A DNA stretch of 64,000 bases, taken from positions 2,701,529-2,765,528 of the forward strand of contig NADL03000699.1 of the NCBI GenBank assembly GCA_002205965.3. Direction: 5' to 3'. The notes beneath the pieces are model-generated. The model did not search any database and was not told the DNA's origin. It saw only the letters and a program-made list of their open reading frames with translations. Shown piece by piece: positions 13,880 to 64,000 of the stretch. The position numbers and the translations under genes are program-made. Source of the stretch: Kappaphycus alvarezii. Taxonomy: Eukaryota; Rhodophyta; Florideophyceae; Gigartinales; Solieriaceae. Each line of letters opens with the position of its first letter. Position 1 is the stretch's first letter.

Positions 13880-16800
13880 ATGAAGAAAAAGGTCGACTCA
13901 CGCATACGCCAGGTTTTGCAAAATGCAGTAACCAACAACCACAGAGCCCTTATCGTCCTTGTCGGCGATAAGGGTCGCGACCAGGTCGTCAACATACACT
14001 ACATGTTGTCCAAAATGGCCATGCAAGCAAGACCCTCCGTTCTCTGGTGCTACAAGAAAGAGCTGGGCTTCAGTTCCAATAAGAAGAAGCGCATGAAAAT
14101 CATCAAGAAGCGTATCAAACAAGGGCTCATCGATCCTGACCGCGATGATCCCTTCGAGCTCTTCATCTCCTCCACGTCCATCCGCTTTGCATACTATTCA
14201 GAGTCTCACAAGATTCTTGGTAATACCTACGGCATGTGCGTCTTGCAGGATTTCGAGGCCCTCACCCCGAACCTCTTGGCTCGTACCCTTGAAACTGTGC
14301 AAGGCGGCGGTGTCACAATTCTTCTCATCAACAAGATGGCGTCCCTCAAACAGCTCTACTCTCTCACCATGGATGTGCACGCACGTCTTCGAACAGAGTC
14401 GCACACAAAAGTTGTCGGCCGCTTCAACGAGCGCTTCATACTCTCCCTTGCAGACTGCCCCGCCGCAATTGTCGCCGATGATGAGCTCAACGTTCTTCCG
14501 ATTTCGTCGCATGTGCGTTCGATGTCCGGAGATTCCGATTCTGTAAGCCACCGTCCAGTAAGCACAGAGAATGCACCAGAGCTCAAGCAGCTGAAGGAGT
14601 CGTTGGAGGATACTCCACCGATTGGAGCCCTCATTGCAAAGACAAAGACTATTGATCAGGCAAAGGCACTGCTGCGTTTTGAGGAAGCCATTTCGGAGAA
14701 AACCCTCCGCAGTACGGTCGCTTTGACTGCTTCTAGGGGAAGAGGAAAGTCCGCCGCCCTCGGCCTTGCCGTGGCCGCTGCAGTCGCGCATGAGTACTCA
14801 AATATTTTCGTTACGTCACCATCGCCCGAAAATCTCAAAACGTTCTTTGCATTTCTTTTCATTGGATTTGATGCAATGGAGTACAAGGAGCACACTGATT
14901 ATGAAATTATTCAAAGTACAGACCCTTCTCTCAGCAAGGCAGTAGTTAGGGTCAACGTCTTTCGGAATCATCGTCAGACGGTCCAGTATATTACCCCGTC
15001 AGATGCACCCAGATTACTCACCCAGGCAGAGCTACTTGTCATAGATGAGGCTGCGGCAATTCCATTACCTCTCATCGAGGCTATGTTGGGTCCCTATCTC
15101 GTCTTTATGTGCAGCACTATCACCGGTTACGAGGGAACCGGACGCAGTTTGTCATTGAAGCTCATGCGAAAGCTACGGGAGGGAGCTCTGTCCCAAAGCC
15201 CAGTGCTGCCACCTCTGTCAACGGCCATGCTAATCGCCAGACAGACAGGGATGCATCGGCAGTAGCAGCACATAGCGGAGCAGGGCGGGTATTTAGGGAA
15301 GTTCAAATGGAGGCACCGATTCGATATGGCGAGAAGGACCCCATCGAGGCTTGGCTGTACGATTTGCTGTGTCTCGAAGCAGGTGGCAAGAGGCAGATCC
15401 TTGGCGGCGGAGCTCCACACCCCAGTGAGTGCGAATTGTACTATGTGGAGCGCGATGCTCTATTTTCAAGGCATCGAGCCTCGGAGGCCTTTTTGCATCG
15501 AATCATGTCCCTGTTTGTCTCTTCGCACTACAAGAATTCCCCAAACGACCTGCAAATGTTGTCGGATGCTCCAGCCCACGCGCTCTTCGTTCTGCTCGCC
15601 CCCACTCGGCCTAACACAGACAAACTGCCGGATGTCCTCTGCGCTATTCAGGTGTGTCTGGAGGGCCGAATTTCTTCACGCAGCTCCCACATGCAGCTGT
15701 CCAGGGGGCAAAGGGCCTCGGGCGATTTAATCCCGTGGACGATTAGTCAGCAGTTTCAGGAGCCAGACTTTGCAACCCTGTCCGGTGCACGAATAGTGCG
15801 TGTTGCAACACATTCCGATGTGCAGAAAATGGGTTATGGAACTCGCGCCATGAAACTCTTACTCGAGTACTACAGCGGCAAGCACGACGTTTCACTCGAC
15901 GATGACAACAAAAAGGAGCCTGGAACGGGCTCGCAGGGCGAACTTGAAGAGAATGGTACCCAGGAGCTTCTCATGAAGGCAGACAACACCTTGTTGAGTG
16001 AGATTATCGGACCTCGAAAGAACATCCCTCCTCTTCTGAGACGACTCCATGAACGGCGATGTGAGAAGCTAGATTACCTCGGCGTGTCATTTGGACTTAC
16101 GCAAGGTCTATTCAATTTCTGGAAGAGACTCGGATTTGTTCCCTTGTACATGAGACAGACGGCTAATGAATTAACAGGAGAACATACATGCATTATGGTG
16201 ACATCAAGCCCCTTTAGCAACGAAGGCAGCATCTCAGAATGGCTGCCAGCCTTTGGTGCCGATTTCCGGCGTCGGTTCGTTCAATTGTTGGGCTTGAGTT
16301 TCGCTCGTTACCTCCAGGCTTGGCTCTTGCCGTTTTGGATGCGGGGCCTGAGGAGGCTGACACCTCAACAGGTGATAGCGCACCGAACATGATTGAAAAA
16401 ATCAAGGCGACTTTCACTCCGTACGACAGAAGACGTCTTGAATCCTACGCTCGGAGCTTGGTAGACTATCACGTTGTTGTAGATTTGCTTCCAAAGCTGG
16501 CGGAAATGTACATCTTGGGTGAGCTGAAGGGTTCGGAATCGTGAGGTTGTCTACTGCGCAAGGGGCCATTCTGATGGCTCTTGGTTTGCAAAAATGCACG
16601 GTGGATGACCTTGAGAAGCGACTCGGGATTCAGGCTTCCCAGGTGTTGGCATTGTTTAACAAGGTGATCAGGAAAATTGCAGGATTTCTTCGTGATTTGG
16701 AGGAGTCGGACATTGCAGCTCGAATAGGCCCGGTCAACGCTGACGCCGCAGCCACTGCTGCCCTACCAAAAGCATCTTTGAAGAAAACGTTGGACGACGA

Positions 16801-22970: not shown

Positions 22971-24429
22971 TAGGGGACGAGATGGCGGATGCCGTGGGAG
23001 CTCAGAAACATGAGCTGCTGTGGCGTGGGACGGCGCGGAGAGCGAGCGCTTGGCGCTTAATCTTGGGAGCATCCGAGCTTGTGGAGCGGGCGGTGCGGTA
23101 TGCGGTGCGAGGCCTGCCAACTGTGCCTTTCACGAGTGGTATTGTGATGGGGGAAGTACCGCAGGGAGAGGAGGACAAACGGTTTGCGAGCAAGGAACTC
23201 GGGAAGATGGTGCGGTTGCGACTGGTCGAACGGGTCAGGGAGGGAACGGCAAAGAGGTTGGTGAGGGGTGGTGTGATGGTCTCGTCGTCGTTCGTGGCAT
23301 GGCAAGAGGAGGGACGGGAACGAAAGGGGAAGTTTGTGCTAAATCTGAAGCGTCAAAGAAAACATTGACCGAAAGAGAGGGTGGGGATGGAGACGATTCA
23401 GTCGTTTGCGACGCAGGTTTGGCAAGGGGACGTTTTGATGTCCTGTGACTTCAAGGGGGGTATCGGGACTTCTACCTTCATCTGGACATGCGGAAATACT
23501 TTCTGTTTCGCTACACGGGGGAGTTCTTTCGCTTTATAGCCCTTCCGTTTGGGTGGGGGCGATCCGGGCTGGGGTTCGTGAAGTTGCTTCGCCCGCTGGT
23601 CCGCTACATTCAGGAGGATTTGGGGTATGGCTTGTTGCCATATATCGACAATTTCCTGTTGGCACCGTCACCTGCAGGAAGGGCGGCGACGGAGGAGGAC
23701 TGGGGGACTGCGAGGGAGAAGTTGGAGTGGGTGTTCCGGGAGTTGGGGCTGGCAAGGCATGCGGAGAAAGGAGATTGGGTAGGGAGTCGGCTAATCGACC
23801 ACCTAGGGGTTCAAATTCACACGGAGAGGTTTAAAGTGTTCGTGACGGATGGGAAGGTGCGGCAGGTGAGAAAGATGGCGATGAAGATGTTGGGGGTGGC
23901 GCAAAGGAATCGGAGGCTGGTTCCAGTGGACTACGTGCGCCGGTTCTGTGGTGTGTGCGTGTCGCTTGGATTGGCGCTGCCGTTAGCTCGCTTCTATACT
24001 CGTTCCCTCTACTTCGACTTGTCGCTACACGAGGAAAGAGAGAGGGAATGGAGAGGGGGAGAAGAGGAGAGAGAGGGAAGGGAAGAAGAAAAGGAGAAGA
24101 AGGAAGGTTGCGGTTGGTTGGAGTGCGGCGCTGGCCGGAAGCGAAGCCGGGGGCCAGAGCGCCGCTCACACGAGGCCGGAGCCAACGCATCCAACCTGCC
24201 CAAGGATCGTGTGGACAGGGTGCGGCTGAGTCGGCAGAGCTTGAGGGATCTCGCGTACTGGCGTTCGTTGACTCGCGGAGAGGGGAGGGACGTCGTGCGG
24301 TTACTGCCAGACCTGACGATGAACAGCGATGCAGCAGACGTCGGTTATGGTAGGACACTGCGGTTAGACGAGCGAGGAGGGTCGTCGGGTTTGTGGAAGG
24401 GGCGCGAGCGATGGCGCACAGTCGATTAA
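22967..24429 (+). pseudogene. Reverse transcriptase of the YR element (frameshifted)
   Basis: The first frame (22967-23368) holds the RT N-terminus, ending SSSFVAWQEEGRERKGKFVL, the family's K--GK-R-V-NL segment. The second (about 23400-24429) continues with DFKGGYRDFYLHLDM, FRFIALPFGWGRSGLGFVKL and the catalytic box YIDNF (usual YxDD changed to YIDN), then DHLGVQIHTERF, typical of the RT thumb. It ends in an RNase H start, NSDAADVGYG. A frameshift lies near 23368-23440, and a long Glu/Arg/Lys low-complexity insert at about 24020-24120 interrupts the connection region. The YIDN change suggests an inactive enzyme. Confidence 0.85.
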
Positions 24430-24430
24430 T

Positions 24431-25074
24431 TTGAGGGAGTTACGCGAAGTACGGTTGTTGCTTCATCATCACTTCGCGGTCTACGTTTCGGGCCCGGAGG
24501 TGAAGAGGGTATTGCTACACGAGGACAATCAGGCGGTAGTTTACGTGCTCAACGCGATGGTTTCGGCCTCGAAGGAGATGATGGCAGAACTACGCCTGTT
24601 GGAGGTGCTTCTTCGGGTGCTGGGGGTTCGATTAGAAGCGCGATGGATACCCTCTGCGGTGAACGGGTTTGCAGACGCAGTGAGCCAGACGTGGGATCCG
24701 GAGGATATTGCGGCGACGGAGGGGATAGTGCAGTCGGTGCAGGAGGAGTACGAGTTGGACAGGGTGGCCTTTGGAGTGCGGCCCTTGGGGGAGACTTTGG
24801 TTGCGCGGGTGAAGTACCTGGAAAGCCAGATGCAGGAGTACTGGGGGACGGGGTGTCACGGTTGTACAACCCGCCAGCGGATATGCTTCCATTAATGGTG
24901 CGCAAACTGGAGGCCGAGCAAGGGAAAGGGGTTCTATTGGCGCCGAGATGGCCGGCACAGCCATGGTTCGTGCGCTTGTGCGGCTTGGCGTCCAAGATGG
25001 TGGAGCTGGAAGCGGGCGGCGGGAAACTGTGGGACGGACGCGAGCGCAAGGCAGGGGGTGGGGGATGGTCGTAG
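24431..25074 (+). pseudogene. RNase H and linker region of the YR element
   Basis: The frame 24431-24895 reads LLHEDNQAVVYVLNAMVSAS and RLEARWIPSAVNGFADAVSQ, the D-N-x-A and WIPS--N--AD-LS motifs of DIRS-type RNase H. A following frame (to 25074) gives NPPADMLPLMVRKLEAEQGK and APRWPAQPWFVRL, the linker (P-WP-QPW) found between RNase H and recombinase in DIRS/Ngaro elements. The frames differ, so the ORF is broken. Confidence 0.8.
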
Positions 25075-26724: not shown

Positions 26725-26952
26725 CAGTATAAATACTGCGCAGCCGAGCCGCTTCGATCGTCCCGCGCTTGAAACACACAGAGGGTTTACTGTTCTAGAT
26801 CTACGAGTAAAGTAGTCGGAACTCACCGCCGTTCGTTCAGCTCGGCCCCAACTATCCCCATTCTTGTTCCCTACGCTCTACGACGCAGCGCTACCCGAAG
26901 AACTGATCGTACAGTTCGAGCTCCGCGTTTGCACAGAGGTGATCACGCGACA
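26725..26952 (+). repeat. Left LTR (recognisable part) of Copia element 1
   Basis: Starts CAGTATAAATACTGCGCAGC, which includes a TATAAATA box, and ends CACGCGACA. The next bases, ATCGGGATT, lie where the primer-binding site should be and resemble the ATCCGGATT found at the same place in Copia element 3. Confidence 0.75.
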
Positions 26953-27029
26953 ATCGGGATTCGTGTTCACTCTTCATGCAACTTTTCGAGATCTAACTCT
27001 TGATCTTCAGGACATCGAGTCAATTCAAG

Positions 27030-27578
27030 ATGCCGGCAAGTACTCGCGCACAACTGAAGGAGAAGGCCGATCGCATCATGAAAATGATCAAATCGTCAAC
27101 ATTTAATGATGTTCTCCCGCTAGGTCTACATCAAGCTGCCAAGACCAATTTGGAAACGTTCGCTTCTACTGATTCGAACAGTGAACGATCATTTGAGCTT
27201 CCACCTCAAGATCTCATCACGGACTTTCTCGAAGACCTGCTACCCCCTACCGTCGAAATTTTCTCAGAAGAATACTTCAAGATGCCGTTGTTTCTCACCC
27301 GCGCCTTGTATCAGCTTGCTGAGATGTTCTCATTTGCGTTGGTCCTCGATCACTATACGCGTTCCGGGGACGTTTCTGAGAGTGAAATTAAGGACAAACG
27401 GGTTTGCTCACACGTTTGGATGTGCTACCTGGTCGCAGCCAACAGTGAGACATGCAAGACGGTATTGGAAAACGTCACCACGACCCGCAACCCGCTCGGT
27501 CCTAAATCATTCATTCCTTTACCTTTCACGACTGAAAAAATGCCGAGGAAAACTTCAGGCCAAGGAATGAAAACATAA
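27030..27578 (+). CDS. Unknown ORF between the LTR and gag of Copia element 1
   Basis: A 182-codon intact frame starting ATG 27030 (MPASTRAQLKEKADRIMKM) and ending TAA. It is helical and mildly acidic with a basic C-terminus (MPRKTSGQGMKT). No domain is recognised. Its place, directly after the LTR and before gag, parallels the zinc-finger ORF of Copia elements 2 and 3, but I see no sequence similarity. It could be the N-terminal half of gag split by a stop. Confidence 0.5.
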   Translation: MPASTRAQLKEKADRIMKMIKSSTFNDVLPLGLHQAAKTNLETFASTDSNSERSFELPPQDLITDFLEDLLPPTVEIFSEEYFKMPLFLTRALYQLAEMFSFALVLDHYTRSGDVSESEIKDKRVCSHVWMCYLVAANSETCKTVLENVTTTRNPLGPKSFIPLPFTTEKMPRKTSGQGMKT

Positions 27579-27614
27579 ACATAAGATAACAACGGAAACG
27601 ATTCTCAAAGGATT

Positions 27615-29020
27615 TTGGACCCCATCGCCAAGACGGAACTTGTAGCTCGCCCGACAGGGAATCAAAACCATGCCGGCGATGAGTGTCGTGTGGAACCTCA
27701 CGAACGGGGTCAAGCAACTCACGCCCCCATACAGCAAGAAGAGTATCGCTTCGGAGAACGTGATCTCCCCTCCAACTTCTATCGTGCCGATGTAGAAGTG
27801 GATGATCGTGGCCGCAGAAATACTTCACAACGCAGCATTGAAGATCCTCGCAAGGCTAATTACGTCCAGGCAACGTTCAATGACACTCGTTTCTCTGGCG
27901 ATTTATCGGAAGAAATTGAAGAGACACTCCGAATGTATGACATTTGTGGCCGTCAGTACCAACTTTCCCGAACTCAGAAGTTAGACTTCTTCGTGCATGT
28001 CTTCTCAGACCACGCTCGAAGATTCTTCCTTGACCACTTCTTCGATCATGATGTCCAATCCTTCGGTGACATGGCTCGCATCATTACCGAGGAGTATGTG
28101 AGCGATGCCAGCAGAATGCAGGTAAAAGGGACATTGGAAACCCTACGCCTTCGTTCGGTCATGAACGAGAACGATATTTCCGACGTCTACGTCGGTCTGA
28201 AGAAACTGGTTGAACAAATCAATTTCCTGGCTCTGCAGTGCCCCGGAGACTTTCGTTCGGACGCCCAAAAGACCGACTATCTGTGGAAAGCAGATCCTGA
28301 ATCCAATGAATGATCCCAGGTGCCTATTCAGAGCATCATTGCGTACAAGTACGCTTTCAAAAAGTTTGTTATTTCCCTGTATTAGTACATTCAACAGCTG
28401 ATGCAAATCAAGTTTGTGAATGGGGGGAGCTTTACTCTGGATACTCACAACGCCACAAATGAGCCTGCCGTCACAGCTCACATGCGTTACGGTCGCAATC
28501 CAAGGCAAATTGCACGGCAATATCGCCCTAGGCACCTGAATGCAAGTGGCAGAGCAGAAATCCACCAATACAGCTACGAAGAATTCCAAGGAGCCTGCGA
28601 TAAGGGCATTTGTGTGAAATGCAGTGTCGACCTTGGAAGCATGGCCACCGTTGTGCAAAATCGGATGTGATTCAAAATGCCCGCTCACGCATAGCGAACA
28701 AGGAAAAACCTTTCCATGTACTCACAGACTTCATAAGTGGCGAAGAGGATGCAAATGTTGGAACTGATCCCCATATCCAGGGCGAAGACCAAGACACATT
28801 AGCACTTCTGAACGAGTTCGACTCTCACCTCATGAGTGCTTCTCCTCCAATTGTTTCCACAAGCAATGAACATAATAACGCGGATTTCACTGGCCATGCC
28901 GCTTTTTCCAACACTTTCGACGACCTAGAGCAGGAAACTTATGCTCAGAGGATCTCCTCCGCTCTTGACTCCCCTGTGCAGCCTGCAGTACAAGATTTTC
29001 GATTCGGTCGCGGAATGTGA
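27615..29020 (+). pseudogene. Gag of Copia element 1
   Basis: A 232-codon frame (27615-28313) reads VQATFNDTRFSGDLSEEIEE, YQLSRTQKLDFFVHVFSDHA and RRFFLDHFFDH, the capsid-like (UBN2/gag) region. It ends early. Later frames (28401-28670, then 28610-29020) continue with a basic segment and an acidic linker before protease. A degenerate zinc knuckle (C-x2-C in GICVKC) is visible, but its His and last Cys are out of frame. Several stops separate the parts. Confidence 0.75.
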
Positions 29021-29056
29021 CCCACCTGCGTTTGCGTCGCCAAACACACGACCCAT

Positions 29057-29497
29057 TTGGTTTCTAGTTTCCAAGACTGCGACGTAATCGAAATGACAGA
29101 AATACGTCTCTCTCATCTTACCGAACAAACAAAGGACAGATCCATTGGAATTTTGTGTGACATCGGAGCTCTAACGTCGATCATCGGACGTAAGGAGATG
29201 GGAACGATATTCTCCAGTCTACGTCTCCAGAACCGCACTCTTCCTGCCTACCGTCACCGTTTTCGTTTTGCAGACGCTGTGTATTCATCTGTCGGCCAAA
29301 ATTCCCTGTTGTTCGACATACCAACTGGTATCAATACCGTCTACGTCCAGTTTGACATCGTTCAAGCTGACATGCCGGCCTTATTGGGAATGGATGCATT
29401 GGACAGGGAATCATTGAAACCCTCTACAATTTCCATCAGGCTTTTTAAGAGAGTCCCAGTGCCCATCAATCATTCGAAAGTAGTCCACTTCGACTAA
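29057..29497 (+). pseudogene. Aspartic protease of Copia element 1
   Basis: Contains GILCDIGALTSIIGR where the active-site D-T/S-G-A is changed to DIGA, followed by the flap-like region and LLGMDALDRESL, the second conserved loop. The Thr to Ile change in the catalytic triplet suggests loss of activity. Confidence 0.78.
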
Positions 29498-29566
29498 CGG
29501 TATATACCGATTACACGGTCCCTCAGTAACCACCTTTACATCCCCATCAAGAAACAAGTTCATGAC

Positions 29567-30469
29567 ATGTTCTTCACTCGGCGTGAGCTGGTCCGATTGC
29601 ACAAGCACTTCTTCCACCCCTCGGCGCAGAAACTCTTTGAACTTCTTAAGCGCTCCAACTCAGAGGATAAAACACCGAAAAAACTGCGCACGTTGCAAGA
29701 TATCACCAAAAGGTGTGACCCTTGCCAACGCATTCAATCACCGCCTATTCGCTTCCGCGGCACAATCGGCGCTGAGAACTGCCGCTTTGACGAACGAATT
29801 CTCGTGGATATTATGTACATTGGATCTGATCCAGTGCTTCACATCGTCGGCGACTGGACGCGTTTCAGCGCTGCCCTATTCCTCCCTGATGTGAGCACCA
29901 AGAATATCTGGATAACCATCAATACATGCTGGAGCCTCATCTACACCGGCTTACCAAACCGCATCTTAACCGATCAAGGCACACAGTTTAGGGAGCGGTT
30001 CATCCGTATGGCGGCGGACTCTAATTTTGAGGTTTCAATGACAGGTGTCGAAGCTCATAGCAGCCTCGATCTCTCCGATCGCTACCACGCTCCTCTCCTG
30101 AATACCTTCCGGAAGTTGACCAAAGAGCACCCAAACATCGACAAGCATCTGGTACTGGCTTGCTCATTCAAAGCCATGAACGATACGATTTGCCCAGACA
30201 GACTAGTTCATTCGGTACTATTGTTTGCCGAATATCCCCAGCTTCCGACCCTCACCCAGTCTCTACGCCGTACACTTCAAGAAATATCAAGTATCGCCGA
30301 GCTCGCTCGTAAGGAAATGGCCTCTCAAATGGCGTCTGTGCGAATCAAAAGAGCCCTTCGACACAAGGTACCTTCAGCAATTAATCGTACCTATCAAGCC
30401 GGTGACAAGGTCTTGGTATGGGGAGAAAGAGAGGTCAGTAGCCGTACCTGCGAATGGACTGGACCGTAA
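29567..30469 (+). pseudogene. Integrase of Copia element 1
   Basis: Carries the HHCC zinc domain (LHKHFFHPSAQKLF and CDPCQR) and the catalytic core: VDIMYIGSD (first Asp), ILTDQGTQF (second Asp). In the third position GVEAHSSLDLSDRYH has Asp where the sister element has Glu. A C-terminal basic region with KVLVWGERE follows. The frame is long and stop-free (300 codons), but the third catalytic residue is altered. Confidence 0.85.
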
Positions 30470-30699
30470 GTTGCGGATTCCGAGGACGTAGACAAGAAGC
30501 TAGCATTCATCCGAATGTAGGACTCTGAGCCTGGCACTACACTTCCGTTCAATTTGGCTCAAATAATGCCTTACCTGGCCCCATCAATGCATACCACTCT
30601 TTCATATGTAATTTGACATCTGCTCTGCAAAATCTTCTGCCGAAGCAGAGCAACAGGTCCTCCTCACGGAGGTCCTTGACCCCCATGATGGACGAGCTA

Positions 30700-32199
30700 A
30701 ATCACCAGAAATGACAGAAACGAACCGAAAAGAACTCTAGGGACTCATCCCAAGCGGGGTTTTAAAGGTTATTCTTCGCGAAGACATCCCTCCAGATGGT
30801 AATGTTCTCCCTGGTCGTTTCGTTCTCGCAATCAAGTCCAACGTCGATGGAGCCATCAAATACAAAGCGCGTTATGTCATAGACGGTCACAGGGACCGTA
30901 TGAATAACTTCCTCGTTCATACTTCTATCACCCTGCAACCTCAGTCTGTGCGCCTGCTTCTCGCACTTGCTTTCTGATTAGATTTCGATGTCTGGACTGC
31001 AGATTTTCCCCAGACCTACTTGTAATCCACAGAACCCTTCCTTCGAGAAGTTTAAATCAAGAACCGAGCCCCGGAATTTGAGCTGGAGCCGCACCAGTGC
31101 CTAGAGCTCCTGAAACTACTCTACGCCTTGTGTGGTGCTAGGGACTTCTGGCATGGCACTACCGACAATCATCATCTTTCCGAACTTGGTATGCAGCCAA
31201 GCAGGATCGATAAGGCTTCTACTAAATGCTCAAAAACGAGACACTCAAAGGCCTCAGCGCTGCATATGTCGACGACCTTCTTCGAGCAGGTGACTGTGAC
31301 TTCCGCAATGTCTCCAACCGAACCAGCAAGCGCTTTAAGATGTCAGACGACTTCTCTTTCCCGGACGAACTCATGGGCTTTCGCTTAGATCGTACGAAGG
31401 CTGGAGAGCTCGTTTTGAACCAAAAACATTACTTAACGAAGTTGGAGCGCTTGCCACAGACTGCCAATCTCTCCCAGTTCCGTTCAGCCGGCATGAAACT
31501 CGCATGGCTTTCTAATTCTCGCCCTGACTGCTGTCTCTAGATCACACATCTTGCGCAAGTTACGGAGGAAATGTGGAATGCGAAGCAGTCTGAAATCAAT
31601 CGTCGATTGAACAAAGCAATTCAGTACGCTGTTGAAAACCCTATATGCATCATAATACCTCGATCGGACAAGGATTCATTTCGATTTCTTGTGTTTTCCG
31701 ACTAGAGCTTTACCAAAACCCCGAAATGTCTAGCCAGCTTGGTTTCATCATTTTTCTTGCGGATAGGCGTAATATCTCCGTTCCGTTGGCTTTAAAATCA
31801 CACAGAAGTCGAAGCATTAACCGCTCTGCGAAGTAGAGCGAAGTCATAGCCTTCGCGGAAATGTTTGACAACGCCATTGCAATATCTCAAGACCAATAGT
31901 AAATCACCTCTAACCCCGTTTTAGTGCAACTGCTAACATACAACAAGAGCCTTTTCGATGTCATATCCAAAGAGTCTAGAACATCGGAAAAGCGAACGAT
32001 GTTGGACATTTCCGCCGCCCAAGACGCCCTCAAGGATTCCATTATCTCCGACATAGGATTAGTGCGCAGTCAGAGTAATCTCGCAGACGGGTTGACCAAA
32101 CCAATGTCGCAAGGAGCCATTAGGGATGCCTTATCATCCAGTTACATCAATCCGAATATCGAGCAATGGTTTTTACGAGACAAACTAAGCAACAGGTGA
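30700..32199 (+). pseudogene. Reverse transcriptase/RNase H of Copia element 1
   Basis: Fragments in changing frames: LPGRFVLAIKSN, YKARYVIDGHRDRMNNFLVH, AAYVDDLLRAGD with the YVDD catalytic box, GFRLDRTKAGELVLNQKHYL, and an RNase H end (YNKSLFDVISKESRTSEKRT, then SQSNLADGLTK). At least four in-frame stops and several frameshifts break it, so it is a dead copy. Confidence 0.88.
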
Positions 32200-32998
32200 A
32201 CTTTGTTGACTATGGCCTAATGAAGGTAGCGTTCCTAACGGAATGCATACGTACACTCCCTCCCATCCAGCTATCAATCCCTTCCTCAAGATGGCCTCTA
32301 TTACGCAGATTTCCCAAGCTTCTTCCACTTCCACAGATTTCCCCGATGATCCCTTTCCGGCACCGCAAAACCGCAGGCTTTCCTCCGTAGACTTGATGAA
32401 CTTTTCCTCTGCCGAGTCCACAATCATTCCCTTTATGGCGTCCACAATCACACAATGGTCTACCACCTTCCCATTACCTTCTTTTTTAGCAAAACGCACT
32501 ACCACACTACTTTTTCTATCCCTGGCAACTTGGATTCTGACCCGCTCCCGCCACCCAATTTCTTCCTTTCTGGATGCGCTCTGAGATCCAGCCTCATTTT
32601 CATTCCCCTCAAGAATCTCTGGGTACTACGTACATTCCTGACCTTGACCTTGCTCCATACCCACTCATCCATGATGATCGTCGCAGCTTCTTTTCCAAGC
32701 ATCAAGAAAACCGCGTTAATCATGCTTGCATGTAAACAATACAGCTTTTCGTTCCCAGGCACAAGGAAACTACTGTACCCAGTCCGGTACGAAGACGGCA
32801 GCGGATTTGGTTCCCTCGCACCAGGCACCCCGTCAAGACCGCCACACCTGGATATCGCTCTAGGAAGCTCAGCATGTCCTTAAGGGTACATGCTCCCACC
32901 TCTTCTTCCCTAGCATCGTTCCTCGGCGCCTTCACTAATGACTTCTCTGGATGCGTCCTTCCAGGCTTGACTGCGATGGATCGAGTACGGAACTCCAA
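32185..32998 (-). pseudogene. Unknown gene fragment inside Copia element 1, antisense
   Basis: Three minus-strand frames follow each other from 32998 to 32185, each shifted as if by one missing base. They read LERYPGVAVLTGCLVRGNQI, then HASMINAVFLMLGKEAATII and ERKKLGGGSGSESKLPGIEK, then GKVVDHCVIVDAIKGMIVDS and SLRFCGAGKGSS. The order and consistent shifts suggest one former coding region, perhaps a host gene fragment or a second transposon. No family is recognised. Confidence 0.4.
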
Positions 32999-33774
32999 CT
33001 TCCTTCCCCCACAAGGTGGCGCAGTGAGCGTTGCTACGTCAATTTCGTAGTACGACTTCGCGTCGCCGATACTACTTTTGCAAGCATAGTACTTCCCATA
33101 TTAGAAGTACTTACCGTCCACAGTTACTTGGCTACTGAACATCACCGCGTACACAAACCAAGGAGATTACTCTTTTTCCGACAGCTGTTACTCTCACCTG
33201 TCGTCCCCAACCGCTCCTTGGAGACTTGTGGGAGGCGTCTTGGTACCTTCAACCCAACTATGGGCCTCTTTTTGCTCGCTTTTGCATCTTCGTATTAATT
33301 ACTGCTGGTCGACGTCCACACTCTGGTCCAGTTGGGGCCACTTAGGACCACCACTGCAAAGCACGGGGTCCCTCTGCAAGCGATTTAGGTGTGGGTTTTA
33401 GTTGTGGCGCTGGATGACACTCAGAGGACCAGTTTTTTTGGACACCAACCAACTTGAGGTTGCCGAGGCCGGGCAGTGGTTTCAATCGACACAAAAAAGC
33501 TTGTACACTGTCTGATCGCTCGGCAACACTGTGCACCGAATATCCCGTGTGTGATAATATTTCTGGCAAGTTGTGATTTTCCCAGCAATTTTACCGACGA
33601 CATGCTGGACGAAAATTTGAAAAAAAGCAAAACAAACTTCTCGCACGCACACAACTGACATCTCATATGCTTTTTTTCTTGCACTGCACAGTACGCACAA
33701 AGAATTTGGACGAGTGGGGGGAGTTTCATTACAGTAGCTAGGTTATACTACCTACTTACAGTGTTAACTCGCCC
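32999..33774. other. Non-coding part of Copia element 1 upstream of the right LTR
   Basis: Contains only short frames. It lies between RNase H and the right LTR where normally a short polypurine tract would be found, so it is probably inserted DNA. Confidence 0.35.
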
Positions 33775-33817
33775 AAACCGTCGCCGCCGTTGGGGCTGCC
33801 CCGGTTGTTGGAACGTA

Positions 33818-34078
33818 CAGTATAAATACTGCGCAGCCGAGCCGCTTCGAGCGGACCCCGGTTGAAACACACAGAGAGTTTACTGTTCTAGATCTACGAG
33901 TAAAGTAGTCGGAACTCAACGCCATTCGTTCAGCCCGGACCCCTTTATCATCCACCGTTCGTTCAGCTCGGCCCCAACTATCCCCATCCTTGTTCCCTAC
34001 GCTCTACAACGCGGCGCTACCCGACGAACCGATCGTACAGTTCGAGCTCCGCGTTTGCAGAGAGGTGATCACGCGACA
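33818..34078 (+). repeat. Right LTR (recognisable part) of Copia element 1
   Basis: Matches 26725-26952, with an internal extra segment of about 30 bp around 33935-33965 that looks like a local duplication of the CGTTCGTTCAGC motif. Divergence from the left copy shows an old insertion. Confidence 0.75.
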
Positions 34079-42493: not shown

Positions 42494-43054
42494 AACAAAC
42501 CGGATTTAGTCGTGGTTTGAGGTTTTTCAAAAATGAGTTCCTGCACAATCCAGTAAGACTAATCCTACCGGTTACGGTTTACAGCGTTGTTTAGAGCTAC
42601 GCGTAAGTGTGCAAATTCTAACCATGCGATTACCTCTTTTATTCCCTGAACACTTGGTAGTGCCCGAATACCAACCGGAAAGCCCCGTAATGCCCCGCCC
42701 TGTGCCAGACCCTGGGCTAGTTGCGTCTAGATCCAGACCGGACATAGTGATTTTCGTTCAACTGTCCCATAGCTCCCTTTGTGTGGTTACGAGCCGCCAA
42801 CAGCAGCAATTGCGCCAAGTTGACCGTCACGCTCCCAGACCGCTCCCGAATCTCTACTATCTCTCTTCTGCTACAACTTTTCATCAATCTGGCCAATCAG
42901 ACTGAGTTGAAAGCAATCCAAAATTGCCAAGCAGAACCAAGAAAACCCCCACTTCCAATAATATTTTGACTCTTGTGATATCTTAGACCAATAAGAACGC
43001 ATATTTGTAGCAATTAACAATCAGGTCTCAGCGGATAAGGGAAGAGCCACTGAA

Positions 43055-43438
43055 ATGGTGACAAGTGGAATTCGAAAAAACCCTATTTTGAATCAAGTTC
43101 CAGACCACAATCAGAAGCTACCTCGTGTTGTACGTATGCCGCGTACGCCACCAAACGGATTCAATGGATTGTTGGCCGGAAAAGAAGGTCTTCCGCCGAT
43201 TCAAGAGCGCCGTAAGCAAGAGCCACGCCTCGCCTACCGAGCGGGGGTTACTAAGAAGAATTCATTGCAAATGTCTAAGGCGAAGAAGCACTGTAAGCTG
43301 TGCGACTTCACCTGCAACAGCCAGAAGACATTTCTGGACCACTGTCTTAGCCTTAAGCGCTTGAATAGCCGTGCTATCAAAAAGGACCCACCTTACTATA
43401 AGACTTGCTCCAAGAGCTTCGAAAGACGCTCTCACTAA
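43055..43438 (+). pseudogene. C2H2 (JAZ/zf-met type) ORF of Copia element 2
   Basis: A 127-codon frame from ATG 43055. A basic region precedes CKLCDFTCNSQKTFLDH, the C-x2-C-x12-H part of a JAZ-type zinc finger, but the last His is lost (SLKRLNS). The second finger (YYKTCSKSFERRSH) has lost its first Cys and is cut by a stop. It is the decayed counterpart of the intact ORF at 62688-63437. Confidence 0.8.
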
Positions 43439-43790
43439 GAGCGCCACCTTAGTGGAAAGGCCCAAGAGGCCCTACTGGCAGATAGCCTTTAGTACAAGTC
43501 TACCTGCGCGACTGAATCTAGTGCAATAAATTTGGAATTTATTTCAAAAAAATCCTTTGCAGATAAAAAACTGAAAAAAATTTGAAAAATTGAAAAAATC
43601 TCAGAGAACAGCACGCTGCACTTGAAGGGACAAAAATCCCCCCTAAAAGTTATTTTAAGCCTGAATGTACACGTGTAATAAGAACTAGATAAAGGCACTC
43701 AAAAATGAAGAAAACAAAAAATAAAAAAATAACGAAAGAAAATACGTAAAGTGGAGGAATTAAGTAGACTCTTTCCACATACGGAACAGA

Positions 43791-57247: not shown

Positions 57248-57662
57248 TGTCGCGAAAATTCAAGGGTTAGAGTAAAAAGCAGACGGGCGGCGTTAGCGGC
57301 GAGTCTGAAAAAAACGATACACGTTTTTGCTAGTGTAGAACAGTTGAGTAGGTTGAGAATAAAATTGTGGTTACTCTTTTTTACTTCAGTGACCAAGGCG
57401 GTGAGGCCTTTTATAGGCAGTAGATGCCGTCGACTATCTCTAGCACATCTACTTACTACTAGCTACATTCCCTAGCGGATAGTCCTGCGGACGGTCCTAG
57501 TGACCCTTACACTATAGAAGTCCTAACAGGCATCGCTAACAGTACAATAGGATAGAGAAAATATAGACTACGTAGGATAGAAATAGTAGTAAGGGCAAAA
57601 TAGTTATCCTAAAGGACTGTAAATAGTACATAAATAAACTATATGTGCACTGTATTTTAACA
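57248..57662 (-). repeat. 3' LTR of Copia element 3
   Basis: On the minus strand it starts TGTTAAAATACAGTG and ends TTTTCGCGACA (TG...CA). It is 415 bp. Confidence 0.95.
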
Positions 57663-57711: not shown

Positions 57712-59205
57712 TTACCCATTGCTGAACGGTAGATCACACTTACTTGTTGTCAGTACGTAAGTTCGTGCCTGGCACTTTGCGATCTTCGTGAAGGCATCAG
57801 CGGAATTTTCCGCAGTCCGTACAAATCCAACATTGGATATTTCCTCCTTTGCATATGCATCTCTTACAGAACTAATATCAATCATGAGGCGTTTTTCCAA
57901 GGTGTAGGAACACTTGGTGATAACATCAAATAAACTTTTGGAGTCTGTAAACATCGAGAGTGGAATTTTGATTCCAAGCAAGGATTCAAGGTCGTGCTTG
58001 ATCATGTATCCAATATCGAAGGCATCAGCGAAAGCGTAAACTTCGGCGCCTAGTACTGATCTAGTTACTCTGCGACTCTTATGACTAGAATAACTCAGCA
58101 CATTACAAGTTCCAATCTTGTCAGTGAGCAAGACAATGTAACCAAGTTGAGAATTGTTGTCGTCGTTGTTTGCGAATGACGAGTCAGAGTATACTTTCAA
58201 CTTTAGAGAATCTTTGTCCAACTTGTAATACTTAAGCGAAGAACTAGGGTTGTTCTGCACATGCTTTACAACTTTGTTCAATTGCTTGATTGCTTCCACT
58301 GAGAATTTCGTATCAGTTACTTGCGCGGCCATATTCACGGCACAACATATTTCAGGCTTTGTATGTTTTAACCAAGCCAATCTATGCCTTAAAGATCTGA
58401 ACTCAGAAAAACAGGCATCCATTGGCAGAATGCGTAATTTCTTAACATACTGTTCCTGACTTAACTCAAATCCATAATCAGTTCTCTTTACTCTGACACC
58501 TGCAAATATAGTGTCATCGAACTCCCTCTCTCTCGATTCAAACTTATCAAGAGTCTTTTGGGACAATTTAACGAAGTCATTGTTGCCACAGAGTAGAGAA
58601 TCGTCCACATATTTTCCGACCAATCCCTGAAGTTCTGCGTCTGTACGCTTTGCGAAGAGTGCAAGATCTCCATTGGTTGGCATCATACCGAGATCATTCT
58701 TCAGGTGGGAATTCGTAGTGCGATTCCAATAGTCTCCTGAATCGGATAATACATAAAGAGGTTTCAGTAACTCAAGTAAGTGGTTCTCAGGTAATCCAAA
58801 GTCTTTGGTTGGCCTAAGGTAAACTTTGCGCATCAAACTCTGAGCTGACTGTAAGTACGCTTGTTTAGCGTCTTGAGACCAAATCCTAAAGTCGAGCATT
58901 GCGGCAATTGCAACTAACAAGCGGGTGGAACGCTGGCGTATAGTCGTAGTGCCGTGTACGAGATAGTTCTTTTCTTTGTCCCTATGACCTTGTACTACAA
59001 ATCGTGCTTTATACATCTCTTTGTCAGTATTCTTATTTTTGATTGACAGAACGAATCTTCCAGAGAGGATATTAGCATTCTTTGGTATGTCGTCTTTAGC
59101 GATGATTTTCCAGGTATTTCTCTCAACGAGTCCTTCCATTTCTTTCTGTTTCGCTTTCAGAAACTCAGCAGAATTGGATCTAGGATCTCGTGGGTGTGAA
59201 ACTTA
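57712..59205 (-). CDS. Reverse transcriptase/RNase H of Copia element 3
   Basis: An open frame of about 490 codons. It reads FLKAKQKEMEGLVERNTWKI, GRFVLSIKNKNTDKEMYKAR, WSQDAKQAYLQSAQSLMRKV (first RT Asp), VGKYVDDSLL (the YVDD box), SREREFDDTIFAGVRV, then RNase H: KVYSDSSFANNDDNNSQLGY, SVLGAEVYAFADAFDIGYMI, SMFTDSKSLFDVI and VGFVRTAENSADAFTK. The catalytic Asp and Glu residues of both enzymes are in place. A stop (near 59206) separates it from integrase, so translation as one polyprotein would need readthrough or this is a mutation. Confidence 0.93.
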
Positions 59206-60250
59206 ATTTATATTGACGTCAATGAGTTGGAGATTTTTAGAATATACCCCTTTAAATGTTGAATATAAAGCTTCGACTAGTGTTTCAAATACATCTTCGA
59301 AATAAGGTTTTACTTGAGAGCGTGAGTGTTGCACTTCCTCGCCATTTCTGTCAATAAAGACTTGTCTGTCATTAATTTTCGTGATTTTGTAAGGTCCTGT
59401 CCACTTAGGTTTGGACTTCTCACGATAGACTAGAACTTTACTTCCAACATTAAGTTCATGTTGAGCAGTGTTTGGAAGCTGCGAGTTCAGAGCGGTTCTG
59501 AGTCTGTTTCTGAGGTGATAGTTTCCATCTCAGCTCTTGCCATTTGGAGCGCTCTCATTCGTTCCATTTGATTTGGAAGTTCGCTATTCATGGCCGGAAA
59601 CCTCGGCAAAACTCCAAAGACGAGTAACGATGGAACCAGTCCTTCTGGGTTCATAGTATCGTTCATAGCCTTAACGGCGAGACGTAGAGCGAGTTTTATT
59701 TCAACTTCAGGCTCTGAATGGCGAATCTTGTGGTAAATAAGGCGTAACGGATCATGGTAACGTTCACCAGAACCAATAGAATTGTGGCTTTCAACTCCAG
59801 ATAGGCTGAGTTTGATTCCATTCGATTTTATCAAATCTTTCCACGCTTTGGAAACAAATTGGCTGCCTTGGTCCACTTTCATTTTGTCAGGAAATCCAGT
59901 GTATATTGTAGCCCAGCACTCAAGAAAAGAGTTCCAAATAGATTCCGTACTTTGACTGTGTAGGAATACAGCATTTCCAAAATGAGTTTGCGTATCCACG
60001 ATATGAAGTACAGGATTTTTGTCAAGAAACATAATATCAAGAGCTAACTCTTGGTTGAATATGATTCCATTGGGCGTGCTAACCTGAAATGATCTGGGTT
60101 TCGGTTCAAAACGTTGACATGTGCGGCATTGTTTGGATATTTCTGTAATCAAGTCTCGTGTCTCGGGCGTTGCTTCCTCTGGTCTAGCTCTGCTAATCAG
60201 ATTGTACAGCTTCGAGGCAGACGGATGAAAAAAATGTAAATGAAGGCGCT
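59206..60250 (-). CDS. Integrase of Copia element 3
   Basis: The zinc domain (LHLHFFHPSASKLYNLISRA, CRTCQRF) is followed by the DDE core: LALDIMFLDKNPVLHIVDTQ, KMKVDQGSQFVSKAW, GVESHNSIGSGERYHDPLRL, with Asp, Asp and Glu all present, then a C-terminal part with HELNVGSKVLVYREKSKPKW (GKGY-like). The frame changes once near 60250 (from protease) and once near 59490, each like one missing base. Confidence 0.9.
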
Positions 60251-60766
60251 TTACTGAGATTTTGTGAAAAGTATTTCAGAAAAATCCCACACGACGTAAA
60301 GATGACCGTGTTTGCGTATGATAGGTATAGTCCATCCATGTATTTTGGAGACAAGTAGGTTGTCAACGTTGTCGGCAACAAGTCCAAATTTGTCTAAAGC
60401 TTCTAATCCAATCAAAAATGGAATATTGGCATCAACTACATCGACATGTAGCGGGATAAAAGCGCCATCAGGCGTTGGAATACGAATTGGAATCTGCGCA
60501 ATACTTGGAAAGATTCCATCACCAAACTTGTAAGCAGTTGTCACGTGCTTACGTTTTATCTTAATCCCAGCTAGGTTACAATATGCCTTTGCTTGTGATT
60601 TTCCGATCACAGATTTTTGGGCACCAGTGTCGAGACACATTCCGTGGAATTTCTCAGAGTTGGAGTGTCTTGGTAATTTACTGCCTTTGGCAGTTAAAAT
60701 TTCATGGATCTGTACGTGTTCATTCGCCATATTTCTTTGTTTCCGTGGAAAAGATACGTGTCTCAC
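60251..60766 (-). CDS. Aspartic protease of Copia element 3
   Basis: A 171-codon frame with the active-site HGMCLDTGAQKSVIG, then IPFLIGLEALDKFGL, the second conserved loop. It ends WDFSEILFTKSQ at the junction to integrase, where one base is missing relative to the next frame. Confidence 0.9.
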   Translation of the reverse strand: MRHVSFPRKQRNMANEHVQIHEILTAKGSKLPRHSNSEKFHGMCLDTGAQKSVIGKSQAKAYCNLAGIKIKRKHVTTAYKFGDGIFPSIAQIPIRIPTPDGAFIPLHVDVVDANIPFLIGLEALDKFGLVADNVDNLLVSKIHGWTIPIIRKHGHLYVVWDFSEILFTKSQ

Positions 60767-60846: not shown

Positions 60847-62379
60847 TTAAAAATCCTCGTCATCCAACAACGGTTGATCCTTAACTGTAATTTTTGAAAA
60901 TAATTGTTCAGGGACATACGTTGAGTCATCGTCATTCATTTCGTTTTCGTTTTCTTCAATGTCATCATCATTGTTGACGTCTCCGAAGAAATCCTGAGCA
61001 GAGAATATTTCTTCTTCAATTGATTGATCATCATGATCCAATTCTTGACAGAGCTCAAAAAGTACACGCTTGGTGGCCTTTGCCGGATCTTTAAAAGAGT
61101 TTCTCTGGTAGTGTTGTACCTTCCTAGCAACATTCTCAGCCATTGACTGGCGACATTGAGAAAGAATGTGGCCCTTTTACCACAACCCCAACAAATCCTA
61201 TCATCACTAAGTTTGTTCTTCCTCAAGCTGTAATCGCTGTTGCTACGTGAGTTACCATCGTGACGATTGACTTTGATATAACGCGGGTCACGGCCGTATT
61301 GAGGTTGTCCGGTATACAATGTGTCAGCAAGACGGCTACGTAGTGCAGGGTCTGCATCTGAGATTGATGTCATACGTAGGTTCCTCTGATCTCTCATTCG
61401 TCCAACTTTCTCCTCTTGCTCGAATTGAGCGGCAGAAATGAGCTGACTGTAGAATGATTGATAACTTAAGTCCCCCGAATTTGCCCTACTGCAAGGATCA
61501 CGAGCCCAAGAGAATCCAATAACGGCGGACTGAAGATACTCAATCTTGTGCCTTTCTGAGCGGCAGTGAGGCGGTGCTTGGGGAGTCAGCTTAGAGATCT
61601 CCTCGTGGACTTTCTCGATAGCATCATTTACAGTGCAAGTGGGAGAAATATACTGACTGACACGAATGTTGCGAAGGTACGCAGCAATTCTGTTTTGCCT
61701 TGAGACTGAGTTATACTCACTTTCCAGAGCTTTTAGAGCTTGAGAGTAATGCTCATACACACCTTCAATATTCGTTATGTAGAATCTTTTCGCATTTCCT
61801 GTAAGGAGATGGTGGAGATACTTGAGCTTTTTCGTCATTAAGCATATAATCTTGGCAAGCATACTTGTACTCAGCTATGAACTCGTTCCAACATTCGGCT
61901 AGGCTTCCAGAAAATTTCTTATTTTCTTCTCTGAAGCGCATAGACATGTAGTGTGAGACCTTGTCTTCAGATGGTGCAGGGGGGGTGGACATTGGAGTGG
62001 AACGTATCGGGTTTGGGGCGAGTCTAATCGGTGATCCGGTCGGTGAAGCAAGAGAGTTGAAATATGCATCAATTTGGTTTAAAGCTTTGTTGAGGTCACC
62101 ATTGCGAAGAATAGTTGACGCAAAAGTCTTCGAAAGGACAGCAGATTCATGGCGGACAGTTGGCACATTGCGTTCCGCGAGAAACAAAATCACCTTGCGG
62201 ATAATGGAGGGATTACTCAGAATTTGTCCCGAGAAAAGCATTGGTATAGGGAATTCCTCAAGTAACCGAGCCCTTAATTCATCACCAGCGAGGGAACTAT
62301 CCTCAACATAACCTTTGAAGCAGTCCACCAAAGATTGTTGCAACTCTGTGGTTTGTCTAATACCTTGACCGAAAACCAT
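60847..62379 (-). CDS. Gag of Copia element 3, two frame changes
   Basis: Starts MVFGQGIRQTTELQQSLVDC at ATG 62379. It continues ECWNEFIAEYKYACQDYMLN, changes frame once (an extra A in the A5 run near 61830), and reads LHHLLTGNAKRFYI, NAIEKVHEEISKLTPQAP-like helices and the zinc knuckle C-W-G-C-G-K-x-G-H-x4-C near 61190. The knuckle itself spans a second change near 61170 (one base missing by AAAA). It ends acidic (DDDSTYVPEQ). The two changes cancel, so the ends are in the same frame. Programmed shifting within gag is unlikely because one of them splits the knuckle. Confidence 0.9.
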
Positions 62380-62687
62380 ATCAATATACCCTCTTGCAAG
62401 TACAAATTAATAGTGATTTAATGCTTCGAAAATTTGGCCCCTTTTTGGTTCACTTTTTCTTTCTTTTTTTAGCACTATATGCCCTTTTTGGATGGCCTAT
62501 TATTATTTCGCTTTTTGCTTTTCCTTTCACTGTAAACTTTTTGATTTTTCAATTTGTTTTTTTTCAATTTGTTTTTTCTGTTTTCAACTTGTGTTTTTTT
62601 TTCAATTTTCAAGCAAGAATCACGATTAATTTGATAATTCAATTTACTCAGAACAAGATCGAATATCCAGATTGGATCTAATTAAAT

Positions 62688-63437
62688 CTAATTGCAAACT
62701 ACCTTAAGATGATTTTTTCCTGCCTTGTGGCGCTGTAAATGCGAATGGCTATCGAAGCTGCGCTTGCACTCCTGACAGTACGGCGGATTTTTCTTGTTCT
62801 GTAAGCGATTCTTGTGCTTACGGCTCTGTAAATGATCAAAGTAGGTTTTAGAACCGTTGCAAGTGACCTTGCAGAGCTTACAGGTCCTCTTCTTTACAGC
62901 TACACGTGTAGAAGTAGCCTTAGTAACCCCAGCGCGATCAGCCAATCGACGGTCAGCTTTGCGGCGTAGGCGTAGCGGAGCCCTAGAGGTAGGTCTGTAA
63001 ACACTGTCAGCGGTAGGACGATCTGTAAGGTCGACTACTGTAATGGGACGACGTGGCACACGTGGTAGATCTGAGACCTGAACTCCCCCTGAATCTGAAT
63101 TCACCACTGGACTGCCTGAACTTGAACCTGAATCTGTACGGACACCTGTCGATATTTGATTGGTTGCAGAAAGTGACCTTTGATTGGTCTGGGTCGGCGA
63201 TTTTTGAGTGCCAAGTGGAGGGTTCTGATTGGTCGAAGAGACAGGGACACTTGGCAAACAGGAGTGACGGTGGTATTTTGGGTGCTTACAGTCGGGTTCC
63301 TGGTGATGCTGACAGAAGTGGCAGCTTACACAAAGTCGATCGGGATTCCGATCTTGTTCTTGATTCGGTCGGGCCAGGTTGGCTACGTGGCACCGCGAGC
63401 GAATCGTTGCCCTTATTGGCCACTGGATAGTGTTCAA
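62688..63437 (-). CDS. C2H2 (JAZ/zf-met type) zinc-finger ORF of Copia element 3
   Basis: A 249-codon stop-free frame between the 5' LTR and gag. The N-terminal half is Ser/Pro/Asn-rich with a C-x2-C-like SCHFCQHH; then come basic regions and two fingers: CKLCKVTCNGSKTYFDH followed by LQSRKH, and CQECKRSFDSHSHLQRH followed by KAGKNH. Both are C-x2-C-x12-H-x5-H, the spacing of JAZ/zf-met/U1-like fingers that often bind dsRNA. The frame has no ATG at all. A GTAAGT donor in the leader (63500-63560, minus) and a pyrimidine-rich ...TATCCAG acceptor near 63425 suggest that an upstream exon, perhaps in the LTR, supplies the start. A related, decayed ORF is at 43055-43438. Confidence 0.8.
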   Translation of the reverse strand: MNTIQWPIRATIRSRCHVANLARPNQEQDRNPDRLCVSCHFCQHHQEPDCKHPKYHRHSCLPSVPVSSTNQNPPLGTQKSPTQTNQRSLSATNQISTGVRTDSGSSSGSPVVNSDSGGVQVSDLPRVPRRPITVVDLTDRPTADSVYRPTSRAPLRLRRKADRRLADRAGVTKATSTRVAVKKRTCKLCKVTCNGSKTYFDHLQSRKHKNRLQNKKNPPYCQECKRSFDSHSHLQRHKAGKNHLKVVCN

Positions 63438-63586
63438 AAAGAATCAAAAATAAACGTAAGTGTCAGTATTTACCGGCTTACACGTGGCTTGAAACAACGC
63501 GGAAATAGGACAAATAGGTATATTTTCACTATCGAATAGCGAATAGACTTACTTCTTAAATTCCCCGAAAAACGGTAAATCCGGAT

Positions 63587-64000
63587 TGTCGCGAAAATTC
63601 AAGGGTTAGAGTAAAAAGCAGACGGGCGGCGTTAGCGGCGAGTCTGAAAAAAACGATACACGTTTTTGCTAGTGTAGAACAGTTGAGTAGGTTGAGAATA
63701 AAATTGTGGTTACTCTTTTTACTTCAGTGCCCAAGGCGGTGAGGCCTTTTATAGGCAGTAGATGCCGTCGACTATCTCTAGCACATCTACTTACTACTAG
63801 CTACATTCCCTAGCGGATAGTCCTGCGGACGGTCCTAGTGACCCTTACACTATAGAAGTCCTAACAGGCATCGCTAACAGTACAATAGGATAGAGAAAAT
63901 ATAGACTACGTAGGATAGAAATAGTAGTAAGGGCAAAATAGTTATCCTAAAGGACTGTAAATAGTACATAAGTAAACTATATGTACACTGTATTTTAACA
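63587..64000 (-). repeat. 5' LTR of Copia element 3
   Basis: 414 bp, ends CGCGACA on the minus strand, followed by ATCCGGATTTACCG where the primer-binding site should be. It reaches the window edge exactly at its outer TG. Confidence 0.95.

Follow-up and report, generated by a model that had tools for sequence, protein, structure and literature searches.

In many retroviruses the packaging signal lies downstream of the splice donor, and retroviral accessory genes lie downstream, with start codons that normally pre-exist in an exon. The programme of Tat, Rev and Rex, in which unspliced RNA serves as genome and as Gag-Pol message and spliced RNA yields the regulator, is, as presented in the accessible part of one account (PMC9143442), similar to the switch proposed below. 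Among LTR retrotransposons, accessory ORFs located between the 5' LTR and gag have been described in the MDG1 group of Drosophila (412, mdg1; Gypsy), where sORF1 and sORF2 show low dN/dS, the sORF1 protein is nuclear and long-read RNA gave no evidence of splicing; these ORFs are short and are predicted to encode helix-turn-helix and membrane proteins, zinc fingers being unmentioned in the accessible part of the article (PMC11952523). In the Copia element BARE1, a single transcript gives rise through splicing to a further mRNA, 104 nt being removed after gag, which creates a stop codon, and few cases of splicing in Copia had been shown by 2013, according to the accessible text (PMC3735527). Plant LTR elements carry additional ORFs, conserved extra genes of which some have spliced mRNAs; they are found mostly between pol and the 3' LTR, and the text of the source does not contain the term zinc finger (PMC7264820).

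The stretch of Kappaphycus alvarezii DNA analysed here (64,000 nucleotides, hereafter the window) contains an element with a zinc-finger (ZF) ORF placed before gag, unlike most of the plant additional ORFs. This ORF resembles the sORFs of the MDG1 group, as described in the accessible part of PMC11952523, in being an accessory ORF before gag with low dN/dS; by contrast, the Gypsy-type pol and the short ATG-started ORFs of that group have as their counterparts here a Copia reverse transcriptase and a leader without ATG. BARE1 differs in that no start codon is made and no accessory ORF is present, as far as the accessible text of PMC3735527 goes. A literature search, with most subscription journals outside it and some sources seen in part, found neither a splice-made retrotransposon start codon nor a ZF ORF before a Copia gag. 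What appears to be new, as read from sequence, is the way in which the ZF accessory gene would be switched on, by a splice-made start codon behind an AUG-free leader; both features were missed by the original prediction.

The zinc-finger ORF and the element that carries it

The ORF belongs to an element of the Ty1/Copia order on the minus strand (Table 1), whose LTRs read TG...CA and whose gag is followed, in transcription order, by a protease (below the Pfam cut-off), an integrase and an RVT_2-type reverse transcriptase (RT), these three being recognised by Pfam. The two LTRs differ at four of 415 aligned columns, one of the differences being a gap, and the gag region is weakly similar to that of other Copia families. 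Inspection by eye of 50 aligned genomic loci revealed a TATAAA-like site at the corresponding place in most of them, and a CCGGATTTA-like stretch after the LTR, also noted by eye, is kept in lineages A, C and D. A host gene adjoining the element was ruled out, the ORF being inside the LTRs and repeated across the genome.

Table 1. Positions in the window of the element, its ORFs, the predicted splice features and the counterpart in element 2.
Feature	Position	Strand	Details or basis
5' LTR	63587..64000	-	414 bp, TG...CA; outer edge is the contig end
Predicted TATA box of 5' LTR, TATAAAAG	63746..63753	-	sequence reading
Likely primer-binding site, directly 3' of LTR	63573..63586	-	by eye
Predicted 130-nt GT-AG intron	63423..63552	-	donor GTAAGT 63552-63547, branch site CTGAC 63466-63462, acceptor TATCCAG ending 63423
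Start codon that splicing would create	63421..63553	-	A 63553 (end of exon 1) + TG 63422-63421
ZF ORF as first reported, 249 codons	62688..63437	-	family frame from about 63257 down
Finger 1, C-x2-C-x12-H-x5-H	62814..62882	-	Pfam and pattern scan
Finger 2, C-x2-C-x12-H-x5-H	62709..62777	-	Pfam and pattern scan
A-rich spacer without ATG, ZF stop to gag ATG	62380..62687	-	sequence
gag region, two overlapping frames in window copy (61765-62379 and 60936-61862)	60936..62379	-	
Aspartic protease frame	60251..60766	-	Pfam Asp_protease 3e-4, 21.3 bits, below cut-off 26
Integrase frame	59487..60152	-	Pfam rve 1.1e-9
Reverse transcriptase frame, Copia type	57712..59139	-	Pfam RVT_2 5.7e-22
3' LTR	57248..57662	-	415 bp
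Decayed counterpart, element 2	42661..43440	+	acceptor GGTAG then TG at 42661; degenerate fingers from 43292

In agreement with the original prediction, a frame of 249 codons is open between the LTR and gag and carries two fingers of the pattern C-x2-C-x12-H-x5-H, whose assignment to the JAZ/zf-met type is confirmed by Pfam (zf-met, 44 bits for a cut-off of 21.2; zf-C2H2_jaz, 29.1 bits for a cut-off of 22.6). The finger pattern matches three times in the window for 0.24 expected matches, the third match (63264-63332) being within the out-of-frame N-terminal part of the ORF. The frame as predicted is thus correct for the two fingers but not for its first ~60 codons, which are out of the family frame because of small indels, as seen by comparison with the young relatives L003, L005, L006, L008 and L009. 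It starts with TTG and contains no ATG. The family frame begins at the predicted acceptor, and the window copy read from the predicted junction runs for 45 codons before the small indels lead to a stop. In the five young relatives a frame of 258 codons is open from stop to stop, and Met is absent from it save for one codon in L009. A chance ORF was ruled out by copy number and by the pN/pS ratios reported below.

The finger spacing is common to JAZ/ZNF346, ZFa and U1-like fingers and, both Pfam scores being above cut-off, the protein falls among the U1/JAZ-like ZF proteins. Comparison with the Pfam and PDB libraries gave, in the PDB, a weak match of finger 1 to ZFa, which binds RNA (1zu1, E 0.012), whereas finger 2 is better matched by classical DNA-binding fingers (PRDM9, a sum of 2e-14 over repeats that individually score less than 16.1 bits), so that RNA and DNA binding are both possible. 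An AlphaFold model of the protein was of poor confidence (mean pLDDT 42.8). Our best guess is that the protein would be a nucleic-acid-binding regulator made from spliced RNA; whether it would bind structured RNA is evenly poised.

The ORF had also been proposed to be a regular part of its family, with a decayed relative in a second Copia element of the window. A search of the genome (336 Mb, 884 contigs) gave at least 166 matches to the ZF protein, 150 of 2442 candidates having been scored, and, as judged by eye, a same-strand ZF match lies no more than 6 kb upstream of 17 among the 22 best RT matches (the remaining five may have theirs among the unscored candidates), in support of the first proposal. 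The second was borne out as well: the counterpart in element 2, which reads MPEYQPESPVMPRPVPDPG from the predicted junction, has a finger 1 without its last His and a finger 2 without its first Cys, followed by a stop. The main donor of element 2 is altered, a donor-like CCA/GTAAGA being left at 42550-42559; its leader contains 10 ATGs and its LTRs differ at 51 of 409 columns. Phage records gave no match, and among the 32 pattern matches obtained in GTDB genomes with the RT protein as query there was no relative, so that there was no copy from outside this genome to compare.

Other features were noted in the window. A third LTR element lies on the plus strand (26725-34078, repeats 26725-26952 and 33818-34078) and has no room for a leader ORF of the size of the ZF ORF because its long frame starts at 27000, close to the LTR. 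A reverse-transcriptase-like frame at 23488-24895 looks to us like that of a DIRS-type element, and a gene split over two overlapping frames by an intron or a frame error (13880-16392) is presumably NAT10-like, by resemblance.

The ATG-free leader and the predicted intron

From the TATA box to the gag ATG, the window copy has no ATG in any frame over 1366 nt, whereas 1000 dinucleotide shuffles had 14.8 on average and never fewer than 5; nine are present on the opposite strand. Twelve of the 50 loci were tested, selected because they are young or represent a lineage, and each gave a P of 0.002 or less for ATG scarcity over the leader (L032 being measured to the ORF end only). Leader ATG counts ranged from 0 to 11 (median 3; 0 or 1 in 15) in the 45 loci with a located gag start, that is, omitting L004, L025, L032 and L049, where none was located, and L050, which repeats L026. 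As eleven copies close to L006 have only 0 to 2, the avoidance of ATG seems to characterise active elements and to erode once a copy has inserted.

In the aligned leaders a GTAAGT lies some 35 nt past the LTR and is followed by a branch site of the form CTRAC, then by a pyrimidine tract and an AG; the intron predicted from these signals is 127-142 nt long. Exon 1 ends with A and exon 2 starts with TG, and joining them makes an ATG in 42 of the 50 loci (41 of 49 distinct places), a sample of the 30 best ZF matches and 20 hand-picked loci (19 distinct) that leans to better-kept copies because the latter were mostly selected for having few stops. At the predicted junction the codon of the window copy has A at -3 and G at +4 and is in frame with the family ORF. 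The donor, acceptor or exon end is changed or misaligned in the eight loci that lack a junction ATG (L012, L018, L027, L031, L039, L040, L043 and L049); L027 has an open frame of 245 codons, yet TTG at the junction. Read from the junction, L003, L005, L006, L008 and L009 are open for 245 codons from the ATG, finger 1 being damaged in L005, and the frame breaks earlier in most other loci of the 50. GT-AG signals thus place a start codon before the ORF, as in a splice-expressed accessory gene. The ATG-free leader, the splice signals and the frame that they open are observed directly in the DNA, and we infer that the leader intron is spliced.

The leader of L006 contains 231 possible donor/AG pairs (GTAAG, GTGAG or GTATG donors, spacing at least 50 nt), of which four would make an ATG and a single one would do so in the ORF frame; this sole pair is the one with GTAAGT, the branch site and the pyrimidine tract. 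The intron pattern has 41 exact matches in the genome and none in the reversed control. Conservation of the splice sites alone was dropped as proof of the intron. In 26 diverged rows, from which L012, L031, L039, L040 and L043 (all without junction ATG) had been removed beforehand, conservation is 0.88 for the exon-end A, 0.92/0.92 for GT, 1.00/0.96 for AG and 1.00/1.00 for TG; these values are not decisive because the intron interior is similarly conserved (mean 0.88) and five junction-less loci were excluded.

The intron is kept better than the ORF, with 91% against about 67% between lineages A and B and 68% against about 53% between A and C. It should be noted that this stretch and its counterparts in B and C are more conserved than the coding exon behind them, which is what one would expect of a signal for packaging or export; folding of two introns as RNA gave nothing unusual (z -1.03 and 0.03). 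The lineage C leaders of L033, L065, L067 and L068 have a second donor-like site, CCA/GTGAG, 20 nt downstream of the first, and either donor would make an ATG because the second also follows A. Junction searches for intron-less genomic copies, as proof of splicing, found none in lineages A/B, C and D: with up to two mismatches, A/B gave three matches, all in the unspliced acceptor contexts CCAATGG or ACAGTGG, lineage C gave none, and with up to one mismatch 43 of 43 lineage D matches read GTGGG. The missing intron-less copies fit spliced RNA being kept out of particles, but fit no splicing as well.

Lineages that carry the ORF and selection on it

The proteins read from the junction begin alike in lineages A (MANKGNDSLAVPRSQPGP), B (MANKNRDTLEVPRSQPGP) and C (MPEREPESAVVPRPVPGP), the predicted proteins of B and C having the common start M..VPR..PGP, and the frame of L032, a lineage C copy, runs open over 284 codons and includes both fingers. 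The layout of A-C recurs in lineage D (RT identity to the window element about 50-52%), where the five copies read have an ATG-free run of 1491-1518 nt from 12 nt after a TATA-like site to the gag ATG. Its frame opens exactly at ACTGACCAG/TGGG and a GTAAGT donor follows an A 56-57 nt upstream; the lineage D intron is uncertain because donors inside the LTR, one after A and one after C, are also possible. The frame is open to the end in two of the five copies, L070 and L071 (240 codons, no Met), and broken in the other three (L054, L057 and L069). Both fingers are intact in L071 and the last His of one finger is lost in L070. Since the first finger of lineage D aligns with the second of A, the order of the fingers differs between the two lineages.

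In L054 (G000:C1:176000-182500, lineage D) the RT, which is open, comes nearly directly after gag, with no protease or integrase match between them; L057 (C27:286400-288150) was read at the same offset from RT, and the two possibly form a non-autonomous group. The sequence preceding six RT matches, of 56-66%, was also read (L063-L068): an acceptor and a junction reading are present in L063 and L067, one finger in L067 and two in L068, L065 has the donor only, and no part of the layout was recognised in L064 and L066. The stretches of L058-L062 fell in gag instead of the leader.

The stretches fetched for the Copia lineages E (L051, L072), F (L052, L073), G (L053) and H (L055, L056, L074) contain no finger pattern, and the ATG-free stretch before gag is shorter there, at most 556 nt. 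In an RT tree of eight rows with midpoint root, a weakly supported branch (77/80) sets the four ZF lineages apart, 18 of 500 shuffles being as low. As four of the eight Copia lineages in the tree have no such ORF in what was read of them, it is best taken as the mark of one Copia clade rather than of Copia at large.

The selection test called for by the original prediction was carried out pairwise against L006 in hand-chosen groups, codon columns with gaps or stops being omitted. In the junction frame, pN/pS was 0.52 (95%, 0.41-0.65) for A2 (16 copies), 0.48 (0.40-0.59) for B (6 copies) and 0.58 (0.50-0.68) for C (4 copies), synonymous sites being near saturation in the comparison with C, compared to 0.97-1.19 in the other two frames. 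The ratio decreased to 0.19 (A2), 0.25 (B) and 0.42 (C) over the fingers (codons 166-245) and was 0.62-0.83 outside them, a weak constraint; for codons 61-165 of A2 it was 0.83, hardly different from the 0.79 and 0.97 of the other frames, so that the selection signal is carried by the fingers. The diverged loci L043, L048 and L049, the repeats L040 and L050 and close copies were kept outside the group means; Ka/Ks was 0.58, 0.86 and 0.58 for the three diverged loci, and several ratios of the youngest copies, which have few changes, were near or above 1 (L003 1.67, L005 1.66). The ratio between lineages is thus well below 1 in the coding frame only, and mostly over the fingers, in line with the original expectation. 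Comparison between lineages shows purifying selection on the junction frame, strongest on the fingers; this selection and the conservation in diverged lineages are direct observations.

Proposed expression of the accessory gene

Taken together, these results make it probable that one Copia clade keeps the ZF ORF as a conserved accessory gene under the control of the predicted splicing. Transcripts would start in the 5' LTR. In the unspliced RNA, about 1.35 kb without AUG would precede gag, allowing scanning ribosomes to get to the gag AUG, and the ZF frame would be silent, with GUG where its start would be. Removal of the 130-nt leader intron would join A to TG and create the first AUG of the RNA, from which would start a protein of 245 codons (284 in the open lineage C copy) in which an N-terminal part of low complexity precedes two U1/JAZ-like fingers. 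Unspliced RNA would give Gag-Pol and spliced RNA an accessory nucleic-acid-binding protein, which may act early, as a nuclear regulator of the element RNA or against silencing. The strongly conserved intron may hold a packaging or export signal, such that only unspliced RNA would be packaged; this would account for spliced RNA leaving no copies. We lean, with less assurance, towards a fuller scheme in which the start codon of the ZF gene would be absent from the DNA and from the genomic RNA and made only at the exon junction. Splicing of the AUG-free leader would then decide, all or none, between Gag-Pol and an accessory regulator, the packaging signal would lie in the intron, and the programme of this Copia element would resemble that of a retrovirus.

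Three other explanations can be set beside this one. Translation of unspliced RNA could start without AUG, at the GUG of the acceptor or at some other near-cognate codon, with leaky scanning to gag, the intron-like signals being incidental. The AUG-free leader permits such a start and lineages A, B, C and D all have GTG at this position, but a GTG there arises by itself from AG/TG, and the donor, the branch site, the pyrimidine tract and the final A of exon 1 are left unexplained; we regard this explanation as unlikely. It is less probable still that splicing occurs as predicted with the intron serving packaging or transcription and the ZF frame being a fading relic of little present function: purifying selection acts on the fingers in three lineage comparisons, and copies of lineages A, C and D have frames open to the end, even though the better conservation of the intron between A and B and the frames broken in most sampled copies are what a relic would leave.

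Expression of the ORF from another transcript, through its own promoter, internal ribosome entry or fusion to gag by readthrough or frameshift, seems to us very improbable. In its favour, about 310 nt of A-rich spacer follow the ZF stop before gag begins; against it, a stop and 308 nt separate the ZF ORF from gag, and neither a promoter nor an entry site would do away with the need for a start codon, because the family frame is without Met in L003, L005, L006 and L008.

How one LTR-element transcript is shared by the genome, the Gag-Pol mRNA and an accessory mRNA is an old question. With the splice-made start codon proposed here, the switch would be readable in the DNA: without splicing there would be no AUG, and with splicing there would be the AUG of the ORF. 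This further suggests that ORF finders that require an ATG miss such genes, and that accessory genes of other elements may hide likewise.
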